A stretch of 64,000 bases of DNA, taken from NCBI RefSeq assembly GCF_000195295.1, contig NC_015388.1:744001-808000 (forward strand), in the 5' to 3' direction. The DNA comes from Desulfobacca acetoxidans DSM 11109. GTDB taxonomy: Bacteria > Desulfobacterota > Desulfobaccia > Desulfobaccales > Desulfobaccaceae. Below, piece by piece: positions 26,828 through 37,819 of this stretch. Position 1 is the stretch's first letter. Each line of letters starts with the position of its first letter. Below the pieces are notes generated by a model. That model made no database searches and was not told the origin of the DNA. It saw only the letters and a program-made list of their open reading frames with translations. A program made the position numbers and the translations under genes.

Positions 26828-27838
26828 CTATTTCCGGGCGATATCCAGATCCATTGTTCCCATGGGCGTGTCCAGGGAGTGGGAACGAACCGAGCGAAAA
26901 CCCGCCTTGAGCATGGCTTGCGCGATCTCTCCCTGGTCGAAGCCGAAATCGGCGCCGCTTTGCAATGCCCCGGGCAGAAACCCGAGCGCCACATCCGGTT
27001 TGGTATGCTCATGGGTCAGCCCGTCCTGAAAGGCCGCGAAGTACCCGTCCGGCTTGAGCGCGGCGTATATCTTGGTCAGCAGGGAATCCAGTTCCTGCCT
27101 GGCGAAATTCAGGGTGCTACTAGCCCATATGAGGTCGTAGCCGGAACCGAGGTCGTCGGTTAGGTAATCCCCCTGAGCGATGCCGACCCGTTCCGCCATG
27201 CCGTATTCTTCAATGAATTCCCTGGTCGCCCGGGTAATGGCCGGTCTGTCGAAGACCACCCCGGTCATCGAAGGGTGGGCCTGAACGAAATAGAGGGTGA
27301 AAATGCCGTGTCCGCCCCCCAGGTCGAGCATCCTTGCAAAGCCCGGAAAGCCGTCCAGCTCCGAAACGATCCCGGCCATCATCCTGCCCATTTCCCCGAA
27401 CGCCCAGGCGGCGTTGCTCCTGGACGCCTCGGCCCACAGGTTTTCGTCTTCGATGCCCGGCCCCGGGGCGGGGCCTTCCCGGAGCAGCTTCGGCAGGTCC
27501 TTTAGGGGATCGACGCAGAGCCCCCATGAGAAGCGGAGCAGATCTCCCAGGTACAGGGGCGTGCCCCGCTTGAGAAAGTGGGTGGTATCCGGGAGGTTCC
27601 GGTAGAGGCCGTGCCGTTTTTCCAGCAGGTCCGCGGTAACCAGGCTGTCGAGAAAGAGGCGGGTGTTTGCGGGATGTGTGTCGAGCCGTTGGGCCACTTC
27701 GGCGGGGGAACGAAAGTCGTCCAGGAGATCGAAGACCCCCAGGTCCAGGGCGCTCATCAGTATCCTGGCCGGCATGGCGCCCATGAGCATCCGCCAGAAA
27801 CGTCCGTAACTTCCTTTTGATTCGGGTAGCTGTTTCAT
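26828..27838 (-). CDS. SAM-dependent O-methyltransferase (acetylserotonin/hydroxyneurosporene type)
   Basis: This is a class I methyltransferase with an N-terminal dimerisation/winged-helix domain (ALDLGVFDLLDDFRSPAEVA, LFLDSLVTADLLEKRHGLY). Its SAM-binding core has FARMLDLGGGHGIFTLYF and later YDLIWASSTLNFARQ. This is the architecture of small-molecule O-methyltransferases such as HIOMT and CrtF. I start at ATG 27838, with GGAGG ten bases upstream, giving 336 residues. It is the last gene of a metal-uptake operon (receptor, MFS, two ABC half-transporters). Its substrate is not known; methylation of an imported chelator is a possibility only. Confidence 0.82.
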   Translation of the reverse strand: MKQLPESKGSYGRFWRMLMGAMPARILMSALDLGVFDLLDDFRSPAEVAQRLDTHPANTRLFLDSLVTADLLEKRHGLYRNLPDTTHFLKRGTPLYLGDLLRFSWGLCVDPLKDLPKLLREGPAPGPGIEDENLWAEASRSNAAWAFGEMGRMMAGIVSELDGFPGFARMLDLGGGHGIFTLYFVQAHPSMTGVVFDRPAITRATREFIEEYGMAERVGIAQGDYLTDDLGSGYDLIWASSTLNFARQELDSLLTKIYAALKPDGYFAAFQDGLTHEHTKPDVALGFLPGALQSGADFGFDQGEIAQAMLKAGFRSVRSHSLDTPMGTMDLDIARK

Positions 27839-27868
27839 CGGTAAAACCTCCTTCACGGCAGAATAGGG

Positions 27869-29641
27869 TCAAGCCGGACTAAGGGCGGGAACGTCGCCGA
27901 ATTTCCATTCCTTTAGCCGTTGCTGTTCCCGCCAGAGCGCCGCGTACAGCCCGTTGCCCGCCAGCAGCTCGTCGTGTCTTCCTTCTTCCACGACCTTCCC
28001 CTGGTCGACCACCACGATCTTGTCGGCCCCGGTGATGGTGTTGAGACGGTGGGCGATCACCACGACCGTCTTGTTTCTGACCAGGTCGTTGATGGCCTCC
28101 TGGATAAAGACCTCATTCTCCGGATCCAGGAACGCGGTGGCCTCGTCCAGCAGGACGATGGGCGCGTCCTTGAGCAGGGCGCGGGCAATGGAGACCCGCT
28201 GTTTTTCACCCCCTGAAAGGGTGCTGCCGCCTTCGCCCACCATGGTATCGTATCTGTCGGGCAGGCGCTCGATGAAATCGTGACAGCGGGCGGCCCGGGC
28301 CGCGGCGATGATTTCCTCGCGACCGGCGTCCGGGCGGCCGAGGCGGATGTTGTTGTAGATGGTGTCGTTGAAGAGGTAGACGTCCTGAAACACGACGGAG
28401 ATATTCGCCAGCAGATCGTCGGTCCGGTAGCTGCGGAGGTTTTTCCCGCCGATGCGGATTTCACCCTGGTCCACATCCCAGAACCGGGCGATGAGCCGGG
28501 TAAGGGTAGTTTTGCCTCCCCCCGAAGGCCCCACGAGGGCCGTGAGTGACCCGGCCGGAATCTTCAGGTTTAATCTTTTCAGGATCGGAGCGTCGTGGTA
28601 GCTGAAGGTCACGTTTTTGAACTCGATCTCCCTGCCTTCGAGGCTTCCGCCGGCGTTTCCATCCGGCAGGGGAGGTGTCAGGCGCAGGTCTTCCAGCCGT
28701 TCCACGCCGAGCTTGAAATAGTTCATTTCGCCGAAAAATATGTGGGCGAAGAGGAGCGGCTCGTAGAGGCGCGCCCCCAGGACAAGGAACATGACATAAA
28801 CCGGGATGGCTAGCTCGCCGGCCAGAATGAGGCTGAATCCGTATAGGATAATGAGCGTCAGCCCGGCGTGCAGGACGAAGGAACCGAGGATCATGGTGGG
28901 CCCTGCTCCTGCTTCCAGGCGGATACTGATGGATTTGAGGCGGCGGAAGGTCTTTTCCAGACGTTCGAATTTCACGCCTCTCAGATTGAACGCCTTGATG
29001 AGACGGATTCCCTGGATATACTCGATCATTCTCGAGGCCGAGTCAACTCGCAGCTTCTGGTGCTTCTTGCCCAGGTAGGTGATGATTTTCACGGAGATCC
29101 AGGTCAGGGGGAGGGACAACGGGATCACCAGGGCCGCGGCCAGGGCCAGTTTCCAGTTGATGAACGCCAGACCGGCCAGGAGGGCCGTGGGAGCCGCCAG
29201 GGCGCCGCAAAACTGGGGCAGGTAATGGGAAAATATCTGTTCCACGCTGGCGTAATCGGAGACGATGTAGGCGCCGATATCTCCGGGATCGCGGCTGTTG
29301 TAAAATCCCATGGGGAGCCGGCGGAGATGTTCCACGATGGCCAGACGGCCGTCGGCGCAGATCTCGTAACTGCTTTTGTATGCAGCGAAATAGGCCTTTC
29401 TGCTCACCAGGTAGAGGATGATCAGGGATGCCAGGAGAGCGACGCAGAACCAGGTGACCCGGGTGACGTTCAGGGGAGTTCCCGGATGCTCCAGGGGGTT
29501 GAAAATTTCCCAGACGACGAGGAGAAGGATACCGTAGGGAGCCCCCCGCAGGAAATATTCGAGCACGGTCCAGATGATGAGCGGCCGCACCCGGCGCGGT
29601 TGGCCCATGGTGGCGGCATTGATGAGCGCTATGAGGTTCAT
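27869..29641 (-). CDS. ABC transporter, fused membrane and ATPase domains (YbtQ-like)
   Basis: This is an inner-membrane half-transporter with six helices in the first ~300 residues and a C-terminal ATPase: Walker A GPSGGGKTTLTRL, signature TLSGGEKQRVSIARALL, Walker B IVLLDEATAFLD. I start at ATG 29641 (MNLIALINAATMGQPRR), giving about 590 residues; the longer open frame upstream has no coding character. It pairs with the next upstream ABC gene as a heterodimer, as in YbtP/YbtQ or IrtA/IrtB. Those are exporter-fold transporters that import Fe-siderophores or release their iron. The context of a TonB receptor and an RhtX-type MFS supports this role. Confidence 0.87.
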   Translation of the reverse strand: MNLIALINAATMGQPRRVRPLIIWTVLEYFLRGAPYGILLLVVWEIFNPLEHPGTPLNVTRVTWFCVALLASLIILYLVSRKAYFAAYKSSYEICADGRLAIVEHLRRLPMGFYNSRDPGDIGAYIVSDYASVEQIFSHYLPQFCGALAAPTALLAGLAFINWKLALAAALVIPLSLPLTWISVKIITYLGKKHQKLRVDSASRMIEYIQGIRLIKAFNLRGVKFERLEKTFRRLKSISIRLEAGAGPTMILGSFVLHAGLTLIILYGFSLILAGELAIPVYVMFLVLGARLYEPLLFAHIFFGEMNYFKLGVERLEDLRLTPPLPDGNAGGSLEGREIEFKNVTFSYHDAPILKRLNLKIPAGSLTALVGPSGGGKTTLTRLIARFWDVDQGEIRIGGKNLRSYRTDDLLANISVVFQDVYLFNDTIYNNIRLGRPDAGREEIIAAARAARCHDFIERLPDRYDTMVGEGGSTLSGGEKQRVSIARALLKDAPIVLLDEATAFLDPENEVFIQEAINDLVRNKTVVVIAHRLNTITGADKIVVVDQGKVVEEGRHDELLAGNGLYAALWREQQRLKEWKFGDVPALSPA

Positions 29642-29757
29642 GGTGTATGTCCCTTTACTGAAGAGATGGTGTCGGCATCCGGTTTTCGCGGAAATAATGC
29701 ACGATCCGTGGCGGCGCCTCCGCCGGCTGGCGATCCGCCGGGGCAGGCGCCACGCTT

Positions 29758-31551
29758 TCAGCGGTCGGTCATCGACCCCAGCACCCACTGGCGCGATTGG
29801 GTGTAAGTTCGCCACATCTTGGCGTACAGCCCCTCCAGAGAGAGCAATTCTTCGTGTCTGCCCTGTTCTGCGATTATTCCTGCGTCAATTACCAGTATCC
29901 GGTCGGCGCCGGTTATGGTGCTCAACCGATGGGCGATCACCAGCACGGTTTTTCCCCTGATCAGCCGGGAAAAAGAGGCGAGGATCTTGCCTTCGTTTTC
30001 CGGATCGGCGAAGGCGGTGGCTTCGTCCAGCACCACGATGGGCGCGTCTTTCAGAATGGCCCGGGCCAGGGCTAGGCGCTGCTGCTCACCGCCGGAGAGA
30101 TAGGTGCCCCCTTCCCCCACCAGGGTGTCGTACCCCTTTTCCAGTTGTTCGATGAACTCGTGGCACTGGGCCGCCCTGGCCGCCTCCATCACCTCTTCCC
30201 GGGAAGCGGTGTCGTTGCCCATGCGGATGTTTTCCTCGATGGTGTCGAAGAAGAGCATATTGTCCTGGAAGACGAAGGCCACCAGGCGCATGAGCTCTTC
30301 CGTCCTGATCTGGCGAATGGGAACGCCCCCGATGAGTATTTCTCCGGAATTCACGTCCCAGAAGCGCGCCGCAAGCAGGCCCACCGTTGTCTTCCCCGCA
30401 CCCGAAGGTCCCACCAGGGCGGTGATGGAGCCCGGTTCGGCAAGGAAGGAGATCCCCTTGAGCACCGTTTCCTCATCATAGGCGAAGGTGACGTGGCGGA
30501 ATTCCACGGAAGCTCCCGCGGGTTGCCGGGGGTCTTCGGGTTCGGTCATCTCCTGCTTGTGGAGGATATCGTCTATCAGACCCACGCCGATGCTGTTCTG
30601 TTTGAGCAGACCGCCGATATGCATCAGTTTCAGCAGGGGAAAGAACATCCCTCCTCCAAAAATCAGGAAGAGAATGGCCGTGGGCATAAAGGCGGAATAG
30701 GACGGCGCCTTCAGGAGGAGAAAGATGATCACCGGCGTCAGGAACAGGATGGTAGAGGAAAGCATCGTCAGGAATCCGGTATACGTCAATGCGAATTTCC
30801 TTGTGATATTCAATGCGTAATCCCGATATGAAAGAATAGCCCTCTGGAGCCGTTCGAAGGGTTCCACCGAGCGGCTGAAGATCTTGACTACCTGAATTCC
30901 CCGCACGTACTCGACGATGCTGGCGTTCATCCGGCCCAGTGACTTGAGGTAATTCTCATATACTGCTTTTGATCTGGGACCGTAGTAAATGGACGACTGA
31001 ATGAGAACCGCGCCCAGGAACACCAGGAGTATTACCAGCGACGGCCGCCAGTCGACGGCGAAAAGGAAACCGAGGATGATCAGGGGAAAGACGACGGCCG
31101 TGGTTGCATCCGGGATATGGTGGGCCACGAAGAGTTCCACCCGCTCCACGTCCTCGGACATGACCTTTTTGATGTCGCCCGAAGCCCGTTTGTCGAAGTA
31201 CCCCAGCGGCAGACGCGCCAGTTTGCCCGCCAGCGCCACCCTCAGTTCATAGAGAATGTTGAAGGCGGCGATATGGGAAAGCATGTTGGAAATATAGAAG
31301 AGCACGCCGAAGGCGCAGACGCCTCCCAGGCTGATGAAGCCCCAGCGCCAGATAAAGTCCCGGTTGATCGCTGCGGGGGCGTCCGCATGGAGAGCCAGTT
31401 CCGTCAGAATCCGGTACACCGCCACATAAGGGGTGAACAGGGCGAAGGCGGACAGCACCGCCAAGGCCATGGAACCGATCAGCCACCATTTCTTCGCGCC
31501 TGCGATCTCGATGAGACGGGGCAGCCCGGATTTCCTTTTGGTCTGTTTCAT
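29758..31551 (-). CDS. ABC transporter, fused membrane and ATPase domains (YbtP-like)
   Basis: This is the 597-residue partner half-transporter. Membrane domain signatures are LPLGYFDKRASGDIKKVMSE and IQVVKIFSRSVEPFERL. The ATPase has GPSGAGKTTVGLLAARFWDV, YLSGGEQQRLALARAIL and IVVLDEATAFADPENE. DEATAFADPENE, also echoed in its partner as DEATAFLDPENE, is characteristic of the YbtPQ/IrtAB siderophore subfamily, as distinct from drug exporters. It lies 35 bases downstream of the MFS gene on the same strand. Whether it imports a ferric chelate or exports something is inferred from the neighbours. Confidence 0.88.
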   Translation of the reverse strand: MKQTKRKSGLPRLIEIAGAKKWWLIGSMALAVLSAFALFTPYVAVYRILTELALHADAPAAINRDFIWRWGFISLGGVCAFGVLFYISNMLSHIAAFNILYELRVALAGKLARLPLGYFDKRASGDIKKVMSEDVERVELFVAHHIPDATTAVVFPLIILGFLFAVDWRPSLVILLVFLGAVLIQSSIYYGPRSKAVYENYLKSLGRMNASIVEYVRGIQVVKIFSRSVEPFERLQRAILSYRDYALNITRKFALTYTGFLTMLSSTILFLTPVIIFLLLKAPSYSAFMPTAILFLIFGGGMFFPLLKLMHIGGLLKQNSIGVGLIDDILHKQEMTEPEDPRQPAGASVEFRHVTFAYDEETVLKGISFLAEPGSITALVGPSGAGKTTVGLLAARFWDVNSGEILIGGVPIRQIRTEELMRLVAFVFQDNMLFFDTIEENIRMGNDTASREEVMEAARAAQCHEFIEQLEKGYDTLVGEGGTYLSGGEQQRLALARAILKDAPIVVLDEATAFADPENEGKILASFSRLIRGKTVLVIAHRLSTITGADRILVIDAGIIAEQGRHEELLSLEGLYAKMWRTYTQSRQWVLGSMTDR

Positions 31552-31586: not shown

Positions 31587-32846
31587 TTACGCTTCCAGTT
31601 TGTCGATGGCGGGAGAGAACGCTCCCGAAACCCCGACTCGCCGCGTTCCGGGGGCATAGAGCTTTACGGAGGCGGCCAGCGAGAGAAACGCCAGGCCGGA
31701 AGCGGCGCAAATGGTCGCGGCGTAGCCGAACTTGCCGGCAAAGGTTACGCTGACCGCGCTGGCGACGAATCCCACGACTTGATACAGGCTGTGCTGCATG
31801 GCCAGGTCCGTGGCCGGGGAGGTGTTGTCGGTCTGATCCATCATTACCGTGGACATTACGGTTGCCGCAAGGGTGTGCAGGAACATGAGCGCTCCCACCG
31901 CCAGACAGACGCTGAAGATGTCGTGTCTTCCCCAGGCGGGGAGCAGTAGGAGCAGAATTCCCAGTCCCTGGGCGAGGGCCGTGCCCACCAGCATGGAACG
32001 GCGGCCCACTTTCCGGATCAGCCACCCCGCTCCCATGGCGGCGCTGGCCCCGATCAGGGCGCCGGCGATATTGACGATGAAACCGATGCGTGCGAGGTTC
32101 CAACCGGCATCCACCAGCATCGGAATGATTATGCCGTAGGCGATGCTGATCGCCAGCGGGTAAAGCACCAGAAGTACCAGCCATCTGCTTCTTCCTGGGG
32201 CGGTCCAGTAGCTGTAAAAGCGTTTCAGGTACCCCGTTTCCTCCCAACGGGACGGAACGTGGGCCGGTTCCCTGAGAAAGATCAGTTGCACCAGCGATAG
32301 CAAGGTGACGGCGGCAAGGATCAGCAGAGTGAGAGTCCAGCCGAGGCGCGCATAGAGCATCAGCGCCACGCCTCCGCCCAACATATACCCGAGGAGCCCG
32401 CCGCCGGTTTTGACTGCGTTGCCGTATCCCCGCTCGTCTTCCGTCAGCAGACGGTAGGCCAGCGCGTCCGCGGCGATATCACCCGTGGAGGAGAAGAAAC
32501 AGATGAACATGCAGAGAAAGAAAACGGCCGGACCCCCTGATTGGGGATCGAATCCCGCCGTCAGCAGCAGCGAGATGGCGAGGAGCGACTGGAGAATCAG
32601 GAGCCATCCCCTGAAGTGACCGCTCTTTACAAGGGAATAGCGGTCCAGGACCGGCGCCCAGAGAAACTTAATCCCCCAGAACAGTCCCAGGAGGTAAACG
32701 AAGCCCAGGCGTTCCAGCGGCATCCCTCCCCGGCGCAATACGGCCACCAGCGTCTCCAAGATGAAACTGATCCCGAGGTATTGCGTAATGTACAGCGAGA
32801 AGAGCAGCAGGAGATACCACCGTAAGGAGCGGCGAGGCTCTTTCAA
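31587..32846 (-). CDS. MFS transporter, RhtX/FptX/YbtX siderophore family
   Basis: This is a 419-residue, roughly 12-helix major facilitator protein of the inner membrane. FVYLLGLFWGIKFLWAPVLD followed by RYS matches the first cytoplasmic loop of RhtX/FptX/AmpG-like permeases, and STGDIAADALAYRLLTEDER follows. In known systems these proteins import ferric siderophores such as rhizobactin 1021 or pyochelin, or accompany yersiniabactin uptake. The gene lies 32 bases after the TonB-dependent receptor gene and just before the YbtP-like gene, the expected order for an iron uptake operon. Confidence 0.85.
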   Translation of the reverse strand: MKEPRRSLRWYLLLLFSLYITQYLGISFILETLVAVLRRGGMPLERLGFVYLLGLFWGIKFLWAPVLDRYSLVKSGHFRGWLLILQSLLAISLLLTAGFDPQSGGPAVFFLCMFICFFSSTGDIAADALAYRLLTEDERGYGNAVKTGGGLLGYMLGGGVALMLYARLGWTLTLLILAAVTLLSLVQLIFLREPAHVPSRWEETGYLKRFYSYWTAPGRSRWLVLLVLYPLAISIAYGIIIPMLVDAGWNLARIGFIVNIAGALIGASAAMGAGWLIRKVGRRSMLVGTALAQGLGILLLLLPAWGRHDIFSVCLAVGALMFLHTLAATVMSTVMMDQTDNTSPATDLAMQHSLYQVVGFVASAVSVTFAGKFGYAATICAASGLAFLSLAASVKLYAPGTRRVGVSGAFSPAIDKLEA

Positions 32847-32878: not shown

Positions 32879-35098
32879 TCAGAACCGGAACCTGAGGCCC
32901 GTTCCGAATGTCCTCGGCTGGCCAAAACCGGCCACGGCCACTGTCGACATGGACTGGAATGCGGTGACGTACGCTTCATCGGTCAGGTTCTTCACGTAGG
33001 CGTAGATGTCCCAGTAGCCGAACCGGTAGCCGATCTTCATGTCCAAGACGGTATAGTTTCCTTTCTTGGCGAAGATTTTGTTGGCGTCATCATAATAGCA
33101 GGTGGCGCCCTGGTTCCGGACATCCGTCCGGGTGTAAAAACCTTTCGGGTGATTATAGGCAATGCCGATTTTCACGGTATGGGCTGGGGTGTTTTCGATC
33201 CTTTGGCCCCCAAAATTTACCGTACCCGTGTCGTAGTCGTCGTATTTGGCGTCGATTAAGCCCACCGCGGCGCTCAGTTCGACACTGTTAATCGGCAGAT
33301 ACGTCGCCTCTAATTCCGCCCCCTGGGAATGGGCCTTACTGGCGTTGCTGGTGACCCAGATCCCCGTTCCCACCGCCTTGTAGACATGGATATCCCTGAT
33401 GTCCATCCTGAAGAGACAGGCGGCCAGCCGCAGGCGATCATACGAGGCTTTCACGCCCAGTTCGTAGTTCGTGGATCTCTCGGGTTTGAAGCTGTTGTCT
33501 TCGACTGTGCCGCTGGTGGCGAAATAATTGAAGCCGCCCGGCATATAACCCTGCGACCAGGAAAAATAGGGGGTCCAATGTTCGTTGATCAAGTAGGACA
33601 GGGCCGCCCTAGGCAGAAAGACGTTCCAGGTTTTCTTGCCGTTCATCGTGTACATGGGGGGACCGCTGCCGCCCACCGGCAGATAGTACGTATTTAGATC
33701 GATCTCCTTCTCTATTCTCTGGTATCGCCCGCCCGCCGTAAGTTCGAATCCCGCGATCAGGGGCACCATCACCTGTCCGAACACGGCCTGGGTGCTGCTG
33801 TCGGCGCATGATACCGCGTTCATTTCATAATTGCCGAAGAAGGTGGGAAACTGCATACCGTAGGGCCCCTGTTTGCGCTGCTCGAAATCGAAATAGACGC
33901 CGCCGACCCAGCGGAACCCTTCCTTTTTGTTGCTCGACGCCCTGAACTCCTGGGTCCAGGTATCGAGTTTGTGCTCGTCGAATATAAGCAGTCCGTTATA
34001 GTAGCTGTTGTTGCCGTAATCGCCGTCGTATTTGTGGTCGATGTCCAGTTTCCTATGGGTGGTGACGGAAGTCAGGTTCACGGCGTCGAAGTTATAGGCC
34101 AGGTTGAGGCTCTGGGAGAAGCTTTCCGTTTTATCAAAAGAGGGCACATCGAAATTTACATATTCGGCGTCTCCCCGGTTGAAGGAGGCGAGCGGAGTCC
34201 CCCCAGGGAGGCCGTAGCCGTCGATCCAGTTTTGCCTTACGTAGTCGTAGGACAGGTTAAGCCTGGCGCTCAGTCTGTCCGTGGGTCTGTAAAGCAGGGA
34301 GCCGCCGAACCACCTGTCGTTTTTGCTGTTCGCATCCCTATCCATGCCTGGGTAGGTGTTCTTGATCCAGCCGTCGTCCTGCTCGTACTGGCCGTAGGCG
34401 CTGACAAAGAACTTATCCTTGACTACCGGCCCCTGCACATTGAAGATGGTCTCGATGTAGTTGAAACTGCCGTACTCGGCGCCGATTCTGCCCTGCCAGA
34501 CGTTGGTCGGCGTTTTCGTAATGACGTTTATTACCCCGCCGATGGCGTCCTTGCCGTAGAGGGCCCCCTGGGGACCCCGCAATACCTCGATTCTTTCCAC
34601 ATTAGCCATGGTGGCGTCGAAACCCCACCTGTCGGTGTACGGCACCCCGTCGATATACATGACCACCGGATTATTGTTCGTGAACATGGAGGCGTTCAGA
34701 CCCCGGATATTTACGGCGTTGCCGTGAGAGGGGCTGGTGTTCATATTGGGAATCTCTTTGATGACATCGGGGATATTTTTTATCTCCTTGTCTTCGATCT
34801 CAGATTCGTCGATGACCGAAACGCTCTGGGGAACCCTGCCGATGTCTTCCTCCATCCGGTTCGCTTCTACGGCAATGGCTTCCAGGGTTACGGATTTCGC
34901 CTCGGCCGTATCCTTTGTCTCCTCCGCTGTCTCCACCGCGGTTTCCTCCGCCCAGGCATTATCGTATGCTGGGGCGGCGAACAGCAAAGCCGCCGCCATG
35001 ATTCCCAGTAACGGGGAGGCGGCGCGCGCCACATTCCTCAGACGCCGCATAAAGCCATTGATGGGGCCCCTTTCTTCTCCGGAATTCTTCTGACCCAC
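32879..35098 (-). CDS. TonB-dependent outer-membrane receptor (siderophore type)
   Basis: This is a 739-residue receptor expected to carry a metal chelate across the outer membrane using TonB energy. A signal peptide (SPLLGIMAAALLFAAPAY, cleaved near AWAEE) is followed by an Ala/Glu/Thr-rich linker. The plug domain has VPQSVSVIDESEI, VNIRGLNASMFTNNNPVVMY, RIEVLRGPQGALYGKDAIGG and VINVITKTP. A long beta-barrel ends RTFGTGLRFRF with the terminal Phe needed for barrel assembly. The start is GTG 35098 with GGAGG upstream. It resembles FyuA-like receptors. No ExbB, ExbD or TonB genes lie nearby. Confidence 0.9.
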   Translation of the reverse strand: MGQKNSGEERGPINGFMRRLRNVARAASPLLGIMAAALLFAAPAYDNAWAEETAVETAEETKDTAEAKSVTLEAIAVEANRMEEDIGRVPQSVSVIDESEIEDKEIKNIPDVIKEIPNMNTSPSHGNAVNIRGLNASMFTNNNPVVMYIDGVPYTDRWGFDATMANVERIEVLRGPQGALYGKDAIGGVINVITKTPTNVWQGRIGAEYGSFNYIETIFNVQGPVVKDKFFVSAYGQYEQDDGWIKNTYPGMDRDANSKNDRWFGGSLLYRPTDRLSARLNLSYDYVRQNWIDGYGLPGGTPLASFNRGDAEYVNFDVPSFDKTESFSQSLNLAYNFDAVNLTSVTTHRKLDIDHKYDGDYGNNSYYNGLLIFDEHKLDTWTQEFRASSNKKEGFRWVGGVYFDFEQRKQGPYGMQFPTFFGNYEMNAVSCADSSTQAVFGQVMVPLIAGFELTAGGRYQRIEKEIDLNTYYLPVGGSGPPMYTMNGKKTWNVFLPRAALSYLINEHWTPYFSWSQGYMPGGFNYFATSGTVEDNSFKPERSTNYELGVKASYDRLRLAACLFRMDIRDIHVYKAVGTGIWVTSNASKAHSQGAELEATYLPINSVELSAAVGLIDAKYDDYDTGTVNFGGQRIENTPAHTVKIGIAYNHPKGFYTRTDVRNQGATCYYDDANKIFAKKGNYTVLDMKIGYRFGYWDIYAYVKNLTDEAYVTAFQSMSTVAVAGFGQPRTFGTGLRFRF

Positions 35099-35215
35099 TT
35101 GCTTGACACCTCCTTTTCGATCGAGATTTAACTTGAACGGGGCAATTTGTTGTCATGGACGATTATTCTTAGCCTTCCGCGCCGATTCAGCGGCACCTCA
35201 CAGAAAGGGATAGAC

Positions 35216-36028
35216 TCATGGCGAGGTGAAATGCAAGTGTACGATTCTGCACGACAATCGTGATCTTAGTAGAGGAAGTCGCATGAGGAAGCCGACCCAG
35301 CCCCACCGATCCTTGCAGTAGTCAAGGTAGTGCCATTCCTCCACCAATCGCAGGCCTGCATGCCAGGTTTCCAACTCCCGGCTGTTCTTCATTCCCCACT
35401 TAAACTCCACGGTGCTGTCGATCTTCTTGATCGAGTCGTTGTATTTGCTCCGGCCCGCAAGCAGCGGCCCGAGCACGTCGACCAGCATCTCCGCTCCGGG
35501 AAACCGGGGAATAAGGTGCGCCAAAAAAGACTTCACCTCATCTATGGCGAAGTACATCAATACACCTTCGGCGATGAAGAGAACCGGATCGTCCCTGGCG
35601 CCCAGGTTGTCTATCCAGGAATAATCGAAGATGGATTTGGCGATACAATGATCCAACCGGTCTTTAGAGAAAAACCGTTGCCGCAGGGCGATGGCCTCGG
35701 GCACATCCAGGTCATACCAGCGAACCTGCGGGAGGCCTAGACGCTCGAAACGCGTGTCCAGACCCGCGCCCAGATTAATGATGATGCCCTGGGGGTGGCG
35801 TTTCAGGAAATCCCGGGTGGCCGCGTCCAGCAGCATCGACCGGATGGAAACGCCAACTTGCGTCATCCAGGCCCTCTCAAAGCGGGAAAAATCATAGTGG
35901 AGGCAGGCCACAATTTCGCCGGCCTTGTCATCGACGATGATGGGATGCGACCGCCGGGATTCCGCGGCGCGGGCCCACAGATTGATGAGCATTGTTTCCG
36001 GAATGCCGTGCAACTCCGGGTTTTCCAT
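35216..36028 (-). CDS. SAM methyltransferase, leucine carboxyl methyltransferase/TcmP family
   Basis: This is a 270-residue protein of the PPM1/TcmP-like family (PF04072). GIIINLGAGLDTRFERL is the SAM site, followed by RWYDLDVPEAIALRQRFF and LFIAEGVLMYFAIDEVKSFL, the conserved acidic and EGVLMYL motifs. TcmP-type members O-methylate carboxyl groups of polyketides. It is the first gene of the uptake operon, about 117 bases before the receptor gene, and lies under the operator-like palindromes. Two different methyltransferases in one uptake operon is unusual. The substrate is unknown. Confidence 0.85.
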   Translation of the reverse strand: MENPELHGIPETMLINLWARAAESRRSHPIIVDDKAGEIVACLHYDFSRFERAWMTQVGVSIRSMLLDAATRDFLKRHPQGIIINLGAGLDTRFERLGLPQVRWYDLDVPEAIALRQRFFSKDRLDHCIAKSIFDYSWIDNLGARDDPVLFIAEGVLMYFAIDEVKSFLAHLIPRFPGAEMLVDVLGPLLAGRSKYNDSIKKIDSTVEFKWGMKNSRELETWHAGLRLVEEWHYLDYCKDRWGWVGFLMRLPLLRSRLSCRIVHLHFTSP

Positions 36029-36152
36029 GATTATTTTCCTTTGCTGGCTTTAACTTTTTTTATCTAACTCACACCGCTTACCGTTAAAATTACGCCACCG
36101 CGCTCTGCCAGGCCCTTTTGCCGCCCAACTTTATCCGACCAACCCAGATAAA

Positions 36153-36191
36153 TGTATGATGATTAATACAATGTATGATATATCAAACATT
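36153..36191. promoter_or_regulatory. Overlapping palindromic operator-like sites, proximal
   Basis: A 22-bp inverted repeat at 36170-36191 has half-sites AATGTATGATA and TATCAAACATT (one mismatch pair). Just upstream, TGTAT at 36153-36157 and ATACA at 36166-36170 form a second, overlapping inverted pair, and AATGTATGAT recurs at 36151-36160. The block lies about 125-165 bases upstream of the first gene of the uptake operon. The design differs from the Fur-box consensus as I know it. Confidence 0.6.
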
Positions 36192-36229
36192 TAGGACAAA
36201 AAAAAAATTAACCCAGATTCATTTTTTGA

Positions 36230-36310
36230 TTAGGTCCTACCCCATGGGCCTACGGCAGTTGCCTCCAGGATGAGGCCGCCGGTGGTTGCGGCCTGATGGA
36301 TAGCTCCATA
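36230..36310 (-). pseudogene. Old Yellow Enzyme-like N-terminal fragment
   Basis: On the minus strand a 26-codon stretch reads YGAIHQAATTGG, then LILEATAVGPWGRT and a stop. It matches the FMN-binding N-terminal region of OYE-family flavin oxidoreductases (YYAQRAxxGGLIxxEATAVSPxG). No start or remainder of the gene is present, so it is a fossil if real. It lies inside the module bounded by the direct repeats. Confidence 0.35.
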
Positions 36311-36399
36311 TCTAAGGCTGTAAAAATCCCCTGCCCCTGGAGTCCGCCATCAGCTCCCACCGTAGGGAGTTTTGACAGTTCATGCATCAATTCCTTCAA

Positions 36400-36421
36400 A
36401 ATGTTTGACGTGTAAAACATT
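36400..36421. promoter_or_regulatory. Palindromic operator-like site, distal
   Basis: This is a 22-bp inverted repeat with half-sites AATGTTTGACG and TGTAAAACATT. The outer AATGTTT / AAACATT is perfect, and it has the same length and outer bases as the proximal site at 36170-36191. It lies about 230 bases further upstream, near the right direct repeat. Confidence 0.55.
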
Positions 36422-36465
36422 ACATTCCGAGATGAATATCTGTCAAGCTTTTTTTGTTTTTGGGA

Positions 36466-36488
36466 CAGGGTAATTTCAAAGCCGTTAA
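36466..36488 (+). repeat. 23-bp direct repeat, right copy
   Basis: This is identical to 26486-26508. On the minus strand the reading frame entering this copy is open for 30 codons (...NRLVPQHINGFEITL, 36466-36555). In the left copy the same frame continues into VPFDPGIDYEKE and a stop. Joining the two would give one continuous frame. Confidence 0.8.
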
Positions 36489-36835
36489 TATGTTGAGGAA
36501 CTAGCCTGTTGGCATTTAATTTGAGTCTGTCATCATATCGCGTAGTTTCCAGTAATTAAGCATCGCCATGCATCGGTTTCGCCTTTGATCCAGATTAAAC
36601 TTTGCAAATGGTTTAAGCTCTGCTAATATTCAAAATTTATATTAGAATTGTATCGCTGCTTCTTCAAACTCATGAACAACACCCAATTGCCTAAATTGAC
36701 GGATCGCAAAGAAGGGGATGACTCCCCACCCCCTCTTTTTTCCAGACATACAATCAATTTCCCCGTATTTCATCAACCTCTTTGGATCTCAGCTCACAAC
36801 TCAGCGATCATTTACGCAAAGAAAGGCCTAGCAGT

Positions 36836-37819
36836 ATGGGGCTGACAGCATCTGACATATGCGATCTGCAGCAATGGCAGGTCAAATTGACCCGATCACT
36901 CCCCTTGCGGTTTCTTAAGAATCAACGGCCGGAGAGCGACCTGCTGATGCCGTTCTTGGAGTTATTCAAACAACATGTCCCATCAACGCCGGTCATCACC
37001 GAAGCCATTCCCGAAGATGAGCTTCCAGGGTTGGCGGTCGGGAAAGTCTGGCGATATCACGCCGTGCCGGAGGGCATCAAGCTGATCCTGTTGGGAGAAA
37101 TTCTAGCGGCTTTGAACGGCGCTGTTTCGGTCGGGGAAGAGACCTGGCGGAATCGGTGGCAACAGTTGCCCCTGGCCCCGGAGTTGACCATTTTCATCTC
37201 CCCTCAGTGCCCTTTTTGTCCTCAGATGGTCCGACGCCTGATTCCTCTCACGATAGTGCCACCTCAGGCCCTGATCACCTTAATCGATGCCAGTCTGTTT
37301 CTGGAAACGGCCCGGCAGTTTGAGATTAAAGCGGTTCCGACCCTGTTGGTAAACGGCGTCTACCGGCTCACCGGGGCTTTTCAGGTGGACGAGCTCCTGG
37401 ACCTATTGGAAAAGGCCGACCCCGCCCAACTGCCGGCGGCTTTTTTAGAAAGAATGCTCACCGACGGGCAGGCGGCGCGGGTAGCTGAGATGATGTTGGC
37501 CCATGGCGCTATCTTTACCAATTTTCTGCCGTTGTTGACGCATCCGGAGATCAACGTCCGCTTGGGGGCCATGGTGGCGGTGGAGGCGATAGGTGAAGTC
37601 GACCCCGTCCTGGCCGCCAGCGTTTTGCCCTGGCTGTGGCAGGAGTATCCTCAGCATGAGATGGCGGTGCAGGGTGATATCCTCTATCTTATCGGCGAGT
37701 GGGGTGACTCATCCTGGCTGCCGGTTCTGGAAGCTGCCCTGGTCGATACCGAGGCGGCGGAGCTACGGGAAAGTCTTGAGGAGGCGCTAACGAAAATTGC
37801 TCAGAAATCAGCTAACTGA
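36836..37819 (+). CDS. Thioredoxin-like CPFC protein with HEAT-type C-terminus
   Basis: About residues 110-215 form a glutaredoxin/thioredoxin-like domain resembling archaeal PDO and the AhpF N-terminus: LTIFISPQCPFCPQMVRRLI with the redox-active CPFC, and VPTLLVNGVYRLTGAFQVDE with the cis-Pro. The preceding ~100 residues may be a degenerate first thioredoxin fold without cysteines. The last ~110 residues are HEAT/armadillo-like (LLTHPEINVRLGAMVAVEAI, LIGEWGDSSWLPVLEAALVD). I start at ATG 36836, with AAAGG upstream; a TTG start at 36782 has no ribosome binding site. The protein is cytoplasmic. Its redox partner is unknown. Confidence 0.78.
   Translation: MGLTASDICDLQQWQVKLTRSLPLRFLKNQRPESDLLMPFLELFKQHVPSTPVITEAIPEDELPGLAVGKVWRYHAVPEGIKLILLGEILAALNGAVSVGEETWRNRWQQLPLAPELTIFISPQCPFCPQMVRRLIPLTIVPPQALITLIDASLFLETARQFEIKAVPTLLVNGVYRLTGAFQVDELLDLLEKADPAQLPAAFLERMLTDGQAARVAEMMLAHGAIFTNFLPLLTHPEINVRLGAMVAVEAIGEVDPVLAASVLPWLWQEYPQHEMAVQGDILYLIGEWGDSSWLPVLEAALVDTEAAELRESLEEALTKIAQKSAN

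Follow-up and report, generated by a model that had tools for sequence, protein, structure and literature searches.

The three 22-bp palindromes in front of a putative siderophore-uptake operon in Desulfobacca acetoxidans DSM 11109 are, with a probability of roughly four in five as judged from sequence, the operators of an unlinked DtxR-family (MntR/IdeR-like) iron repressor which would keep the operon silent under iron-rich conditions. Such a repressor is the most likely regulator since a motif derived from the upstream regions of dtxR, feoB and exbBD genes ranks the three palindromes first to third in the window. The window is the whole stretch of DNA analysed, i.e. the 64 kb at positions 744001-808000 of the single 3,282,536-bp contig (C1). 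The palindromic sites, which have no strand, are the following:

36151-36172, no strand: O2b, whole 22-bp site AATGTATGATGATTAATACAAT, two mismatches to AATGTNTGA-N4-TCANACATT
36170-36191, no strand: O2a, 22-bp palindrome AATGTATGATATATCAAACATT, no mismatch to the same pattern
36400-36421, no strand: O1, AATGTTTGACGTGTAAAACATT, one mismatch to the same pattern

O2a and O1 occur as described in the earlier note (0 and 1 mismatches). The arrangement it had noticed at 36151-36170 does overlap O2a, but instead of a half-site it is a full 22-bp site at 36151-36172 with two mismatches, which is shifted by exactly 19 bp against O2a and shares 3 bp with it. At up to three mismatches the pattern finds O1, O2a and O2b and no other place in the window, the mean in 100 dinucleotide shuffles being 0.11 and the maximum 1. 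Throughout the 3.28-Mb genome it is matched at four places with up to two mismatches, three of them being O1, O2a and O2b (reversed control pattern: two matches per strand), and at 11 places with up to three mismatches, compared to five for the reversed control pattern. As the search pattern was taken from the window sites, independent testing relied on motifs derived from other genes and on a PWM built from non-window sites.

A 22-bp palindromic motif was learned by EM from six upstream regions of the same genome which were picked by gene (dtxR1, feoB1, dtxR2, dtxR3, exbB and feoB2) and contained no window sequence. It converged on AaTGTTTTaTTAAtAAAACAtT with a likelihood of 43.2, compared to 27.7-36.4 in 20 Markov-shuffled sets, and assigned the three window sites the ranks 1-3 of the 64 kb (19.0, 18.0 and 15.3; next 7.3) with O2a at the top. 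With the 20 null motifs, none of the three sites ever entered the top ten of the window. Adding two regions of another genome of the class (G021), which were delimited after being looked at, led to the same result (likelihood 60.5 versus at most 42.6 in 12 nulls). Furthermore, the PWM from 12 non-window sites scored O2a with 28.8 bits, O1 with 25.3 and O2b with 22.6, the next window position reaching 13.6; in 3.84 Mb of Markov sequence no position reached 22.6. Chance similarity in AT-rich intergenic DNA has a practically negligible probability as an explanation of the sites: the region is indeed AT-rich and two of the sites share sequence partly via their overlap, but three matches were found in none of the 100 shuffles and the sites come out on top with a motif learned independently of them. 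O1, O2a and O2b are real operators, far above chance, and the box in this genome reads AATGTTTKA-N4-TMAAACATT.

Scanning the genome with the motif, as proposed in the earlier note, yielded clear further matches besides the window sites. A whole-genome profile without the window sites gave at least 14 matches at at least nine places among the 150 of 1382 candidates that were scored, the E-values of the single matches being weak (0.06 to 2.6). Seven of these places correspond to feoB1, exbB (two), dtxR2, dtxR1 and the window (two); two of the nine (1261494 and 1817943) are not associated with an evident iron gene. The same applies to three PWM matches of at least 20.9 bits, one of which is intergenic (3063419) and two of which are located inside ORFs (289926 and 288823).

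A strong intergenic match (GATGTTTTAATTGTAAAACATT, 25.6) was detected at 1261493-1261514 (L042:5494), the nearest downstream long ORF encoding a fused cysteine synthase/cysteinyl-tRNA synthetase. The intergenic match at 3063419-3063440 (L043:5420; 24.2) precedes the gene of a small exported-looking protein of unassigned family by about 180 bp. An ORF at 1260321-1260851 is built of repeated HVLPNTTKHKNRIVAAAHNNVFAAHGSRLTAHCFY units and probably represents a tandem DNA repeat that is read through.

The genome encodes three full-length DtxR-family proteins, all of which contain PF01325 (Fe_dep_repress) and PF02742 (Fe_dep_repr_C) above cut-off:

C1:409512-410261: dtxR1, DtxR-family regulator with a C-terminal FeoA domain, adjacent to feoB1
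C1:1138717 (L075): dtxR2, with a FeoA domain, adjoining feoB2
C1:1434009: dtxR3, followed by exbB and exbD

Copies of the motif are located 15 bp before dtxR1, 33 bp before feoB1 and also upstream of dtxR2, dtxR3 and exbB; thus, the same motif precedes all three full-length DtxR-family genes. A convincing site belonging to feoB2 itself was not detected. The regulator, which the earlier note supposed to be perhaps unlinked, would accordingly be encoded at one or more of three distant loci which carry the motif. A regulator dedicated to the operon, as also supposed there, does not agree with the presence of the same motif before dtxR, feoB and exbBD genes.

Co-occurrence cannot alone name the binding protein, and some other regulator which additionally controls dtxR, feoB and exbB could bind the sites. 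This is very unlikely since all three full-length dtxR genes possess an upstream site, as expected for autoregulation, since G021, which alone among the other genomes of the class encodes a close relative of DtxR1, carries the motif before its dtxR gene, and since a second DtxR lineage (G042 and G194) shows similar TTTGAT/TTAGAT palindromes before its dtxR genes. Of the 29 class genomes, two (G021 and D. acetoxidans itself) contain a relative of DtxR1 at E up to 1e-60, and in G021 the motif is also found before the next feoA-like ORF.

Solved MntR proteins (best E 2.3e-15) are among the matches of DtxR1, as are FeoA proteins. DtxR1 has the metal ligands D12, C104, E107 and H108, which are the same in DtxR3; DtxR2 has lost Cys and His from the primary metal site, with Tyr and Arg at their positions, and its sensing may be altered or absent. 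The neighbouring feoB, exbBD and siderophore genes would favour iron as the metal. As the Asp, Cys, Glu and His site mixes iron- and manganese-type ligands, Mn(II) is kept as a candidate. The FeoA-containing PgMntR of Porphyromonas gingivalis has the same Asp-Cys-Glu-His site as DtxR1 and DtxR3, described in PMC4805248 as a mix of iron and manganese elements; it differs in having two FeoA domains and is reported there to bind the promoter of the manganese transporter (FB2) and not the ferrous-iron FB1 promoter.

The operon downstream of the palindromes comprises the following genes:

35216-36028, minus strand: SAM-dependent methyltransferase, first annotated gene (Pfam LCM, 44.6 bits versus a cut-off of 22.3; TIGR00027, 48.4, under the cut-off of 93.55)
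32879-35098, minus strand: TonB-dependent siderophore receptor (TIGR01783, 240.5 bits versus a cut-off of 223.5)
31587-32846, minus strand: MFS transporter related to RhtX/FptX (TIGR02718, 170.4, under the cut-off of 356.15; Pfam MFS_1)
29758-31551, minus strand: ABC transporter, membrane part and ATPase fused (Pfam PF00664 and PF00005)
27869-29815, minus strand: second fused ABC transporter (Pfam PF00664 and PF00005)
26828-27856, minus strand: O-methyltransferase, with which the operon probably ends (Pfam Methyltransf_2 and Dimerisation)

These gene families suggest a role in ferric-siderophore uptake. Upstream of the first gene a candidate promoter and a possible leader ORF were detected:

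36419-36446, minus strand: P1, candidate sigma-70 promoter (TTGACA at 36446-36441, 16-bp spacer, TGTAAT at 36424-36419, preceded by an A tract)
36250-36387, minus strand: possible 45-aa leader ORF (MHELSK... / MHELSKLPTVGADGG...), GAAGG 5 nt before the ATG

Read on the minus strand, the order is AAAAAAAGC-TTGACA-N16-TGTAAT followed by O1, which takes in the last bases of the -10 element as well as the probable start site; P1 lies approximately 390 nt before the methyltransferase gene. The upstream regions of dtxR1 (TTGACA-N16-TATAAT), dtxR3 and the dtxR gene of G021 (TATATT) share this layout, and O1 is therefore best read as the operator of P1, with O2 as a second control point. A consensus promoter scanner did not list P1 among its sigma-70-like promoters, since it demands an A at the second -10 position, and found the region no richer in promoters than shuffles.

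The leader ORF begins about 25 nt past the predicted P1 start and has no Pfam match. Rfam covered 35000-37500 on both strands and gave nothing at E up to 1, hence no riboswitch of a known class. Folding of the leader (36411-36195) is modestly better than that of shuffles, which is not significant (z -1.42; 15 of 200 as good). On the minus strand a T run follows the GC-rich leader at 36200-36209; the corresponding U run at the leader end hints at a possible attenuator.

The spacing of the sites is a further feature common to the operators of this genome. When each site was scored with a PWM that excluded its own group, a second site with a score of at least 10 was located 19 bp away in seven of nine cases; at the remaining offsets between 8 and 40 this occurred once for 16 and once for 30, and otherwise not at all. 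The 19-bp phase of O2a and O2b recurs at the operators of dtxR1, feoB1, dtxR3, exbB and G021, and O1 is a single site. Cooperative binding, one of two explanations offered in the earlier note for the repeated sites, would suit this arrangement. The other, looping, is possible but unnecessary as the site at 36400 overlaps its own promoter.

Silencing under iron-rich conditions would come about as follows. A repressor from one or more of the loci dtxR1-feoB1, dtxR2-feoB2 and dtxR3-exbBD would, at sufficient Fe(II), be loaded with metal and bind as adjacent dimers. At O1 it would cover the -10 end and the start region of P1, and at O2a/O2b it would either cover a second promoter or block elongation. 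The operon would thereby be silenced, and iron shortage would release it together with feoB and exbBD.

Activators of the AraC/YbtA/PchR type are common for siderophore-receptor operons. Among relatives the gene series is rare: a match to the methyltransferase was obtained in two of 99 genomes, and a match to the receptor with E up to 1e-80 in seven of 395, D. acetoxidans being included in both counts. At the Campylobacterota loci L007-L009 the receptor is found near an AraC-type gene, and the TonB gene of G194 is preceded by an AraC gene. Nevertheless, binding of such an activator to the D. acetoxidans sites is highly improbable: no AraC gene is linked to the operon, the only two PF12833 proteins of the genome are encoded at distant positions (926913 and 1761578), the first combined with a cNMP domain and the other with DUF6597, and the sites are palindromes common to dtxR and feoB promoters. 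In the protein encoded at 926913 (L011:1480-2259, minus strand) an AraC-type HTH and a cyclic-nucleotide-binding domain are fused.

Conservation of the motif upstream of orthologous operons, for which the earlier note had proposed to look, was not observed: none of eight 700-bp stretches upstream of Desulfobacterota relatives of the TonB receptor scored above 8.1. At four AT-rich Campylobacterota loci the motif did not rise above the level of AT-rich DNA, the best score (20.5) lying inside the receptor gene of L007. Since the orthologous operons elsewhere lack the motif, the proposed control of the operon by it would be a trait of this genome and may have been acquired after transfer. In G194 a strong match (ATAGTTTGATAAATCAAACATA, 26.6) is located at L024:6773, 99 bp before an AraC gene which is followed by genes for a TonB receptor and an O-methyltransferase.

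A Fur-family regulator would be another candidate, as the genome encodes four PF01475 proteins above cut-off and delta-proteobacterial iron uptake is described in PMC545781 as controlled by Fur via WTGAAAATNATTTTCAW, a dFUR box which for Desulfovibrio and Geobacter is predicted there to act on feoAB and iron uptake. This box belongs to a different family and was not found near the operon: no dFUR-box-like WTGAAAATNATTTTCAW occurs in 36029-36790, and three window matches with three mismatches lie elsewhere and are near chance. Furthermore, the regulator genes preceded by the motif are those of the DtxR family, and the surroundings of the four Fur genes (L079-L082, 3.3 kb each) contain no PWM match above 15.5. 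Binding by Fur is therefore very unlikely, and the DtxR-family repressor remains the preferred reading.

The classic DtxR/IdeR box has the consensus TWAGGTTAGSCTAACCTWA, which has no match at up to three mismatches in the 64 kb. The earlier note was thus right in seeing no classic DtxR box, but a view of the sites as unrelated to DtxR-type regulation is not supported, since their motif precedes all three dtxR genes. The operon box is most likely a divergent DtxR-type box. DtxR and IdeR of Corynebacterium, Mycobacterium and Saccharopolyspora resemble the proposed regulator in their wHTH family and in the palindromic operators of iron genes, and IdeR/DtxR are described to place two dimers on each 19-bp box (PMC8464063); the box described here differs from theirs and its palindromes are repeated at 19-bp shifts. 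SloR of Streptococcus mutans resembles the proposed arrangement in its adjacent palindromes over the promoters of mntH and sloABC and its cooperative binding as a DtxR-family protein (PMC12096823), and differs in motif, spacing and metal, which is manganese. Neither a DtxR regulon nor this motif was found to be described for Desulfobacca or its relatives in paper titles or the beginnings of abstracts, most subscription journals and RegPrecise lying outside this scope.

The FeoA-domain DtxR proteins of other Desulfobacterota share the architecture and the autoregulatory-looking sites over TTGACA promoters, but differ in their recognition helices (e.g. SNSSVTGALR and NSSSVTGALR), those of the three D. 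acetoxidans proteins and of G021 being HKSSV or HKSTV. Relatives of DtxR1 with 54-63% identity have SNSSV- or NSSSV-like helices, and many of them TTTAGG-N4-CCTAAA-like sites; the dtxR genes of G042 and G194 encode VTPATV and VTRATV helices and are preceded by the intermediate TTTGAT/TTAGAT palindromes. In a comparison of helix and motif, 57 loci gave 42 distinct parsed helices (4 HK, 38 other), the rest being duplicates or unparsed. With an HK-PWM applied to 170 bp upstream in a leave-one-out manner, the HK genes scored 24.8, 19.5, 12.9 and 3.1 and the others up to 17.2; the dtxR2 site, which lies outside the 170-bp stretch, scores 23.0 when left out. As this separation is incomplete, the link between helix and motif is suggestive only, and an exclusive HK link is weakened by the 26.6 match in G194, whose readable DtxR-type proteins include no HK helix. 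We tentatively propose, at somewhat less than even odds, that a small DtxR clade (HKS[S/T]V; represented to date by D. acetoxidans and a single further genome of its order) switched its operator from the TTTAGG type to ATGTTT...AAACAT at 19-bp shifts, and that a sparsely distributed siderophore-uptake operon, AraC-linked elsewhere, came under its control via a dtxR1-like operator-promoter unit.

The regulator would thus belong to a known family and use a variant operator box. Delta-proteobacterial iron regulation has been described through Fur (PMC545781), and the operator turns dtxR1-feoB1, dtxR2-feoB2, dtxR3-exbBD and siderophore uptake into a testable iron regulon in a sulfate reducer. The HKS and SNS-like DtxR subgroups furthermore form a natural pair for studying the joint change of helix and operator.
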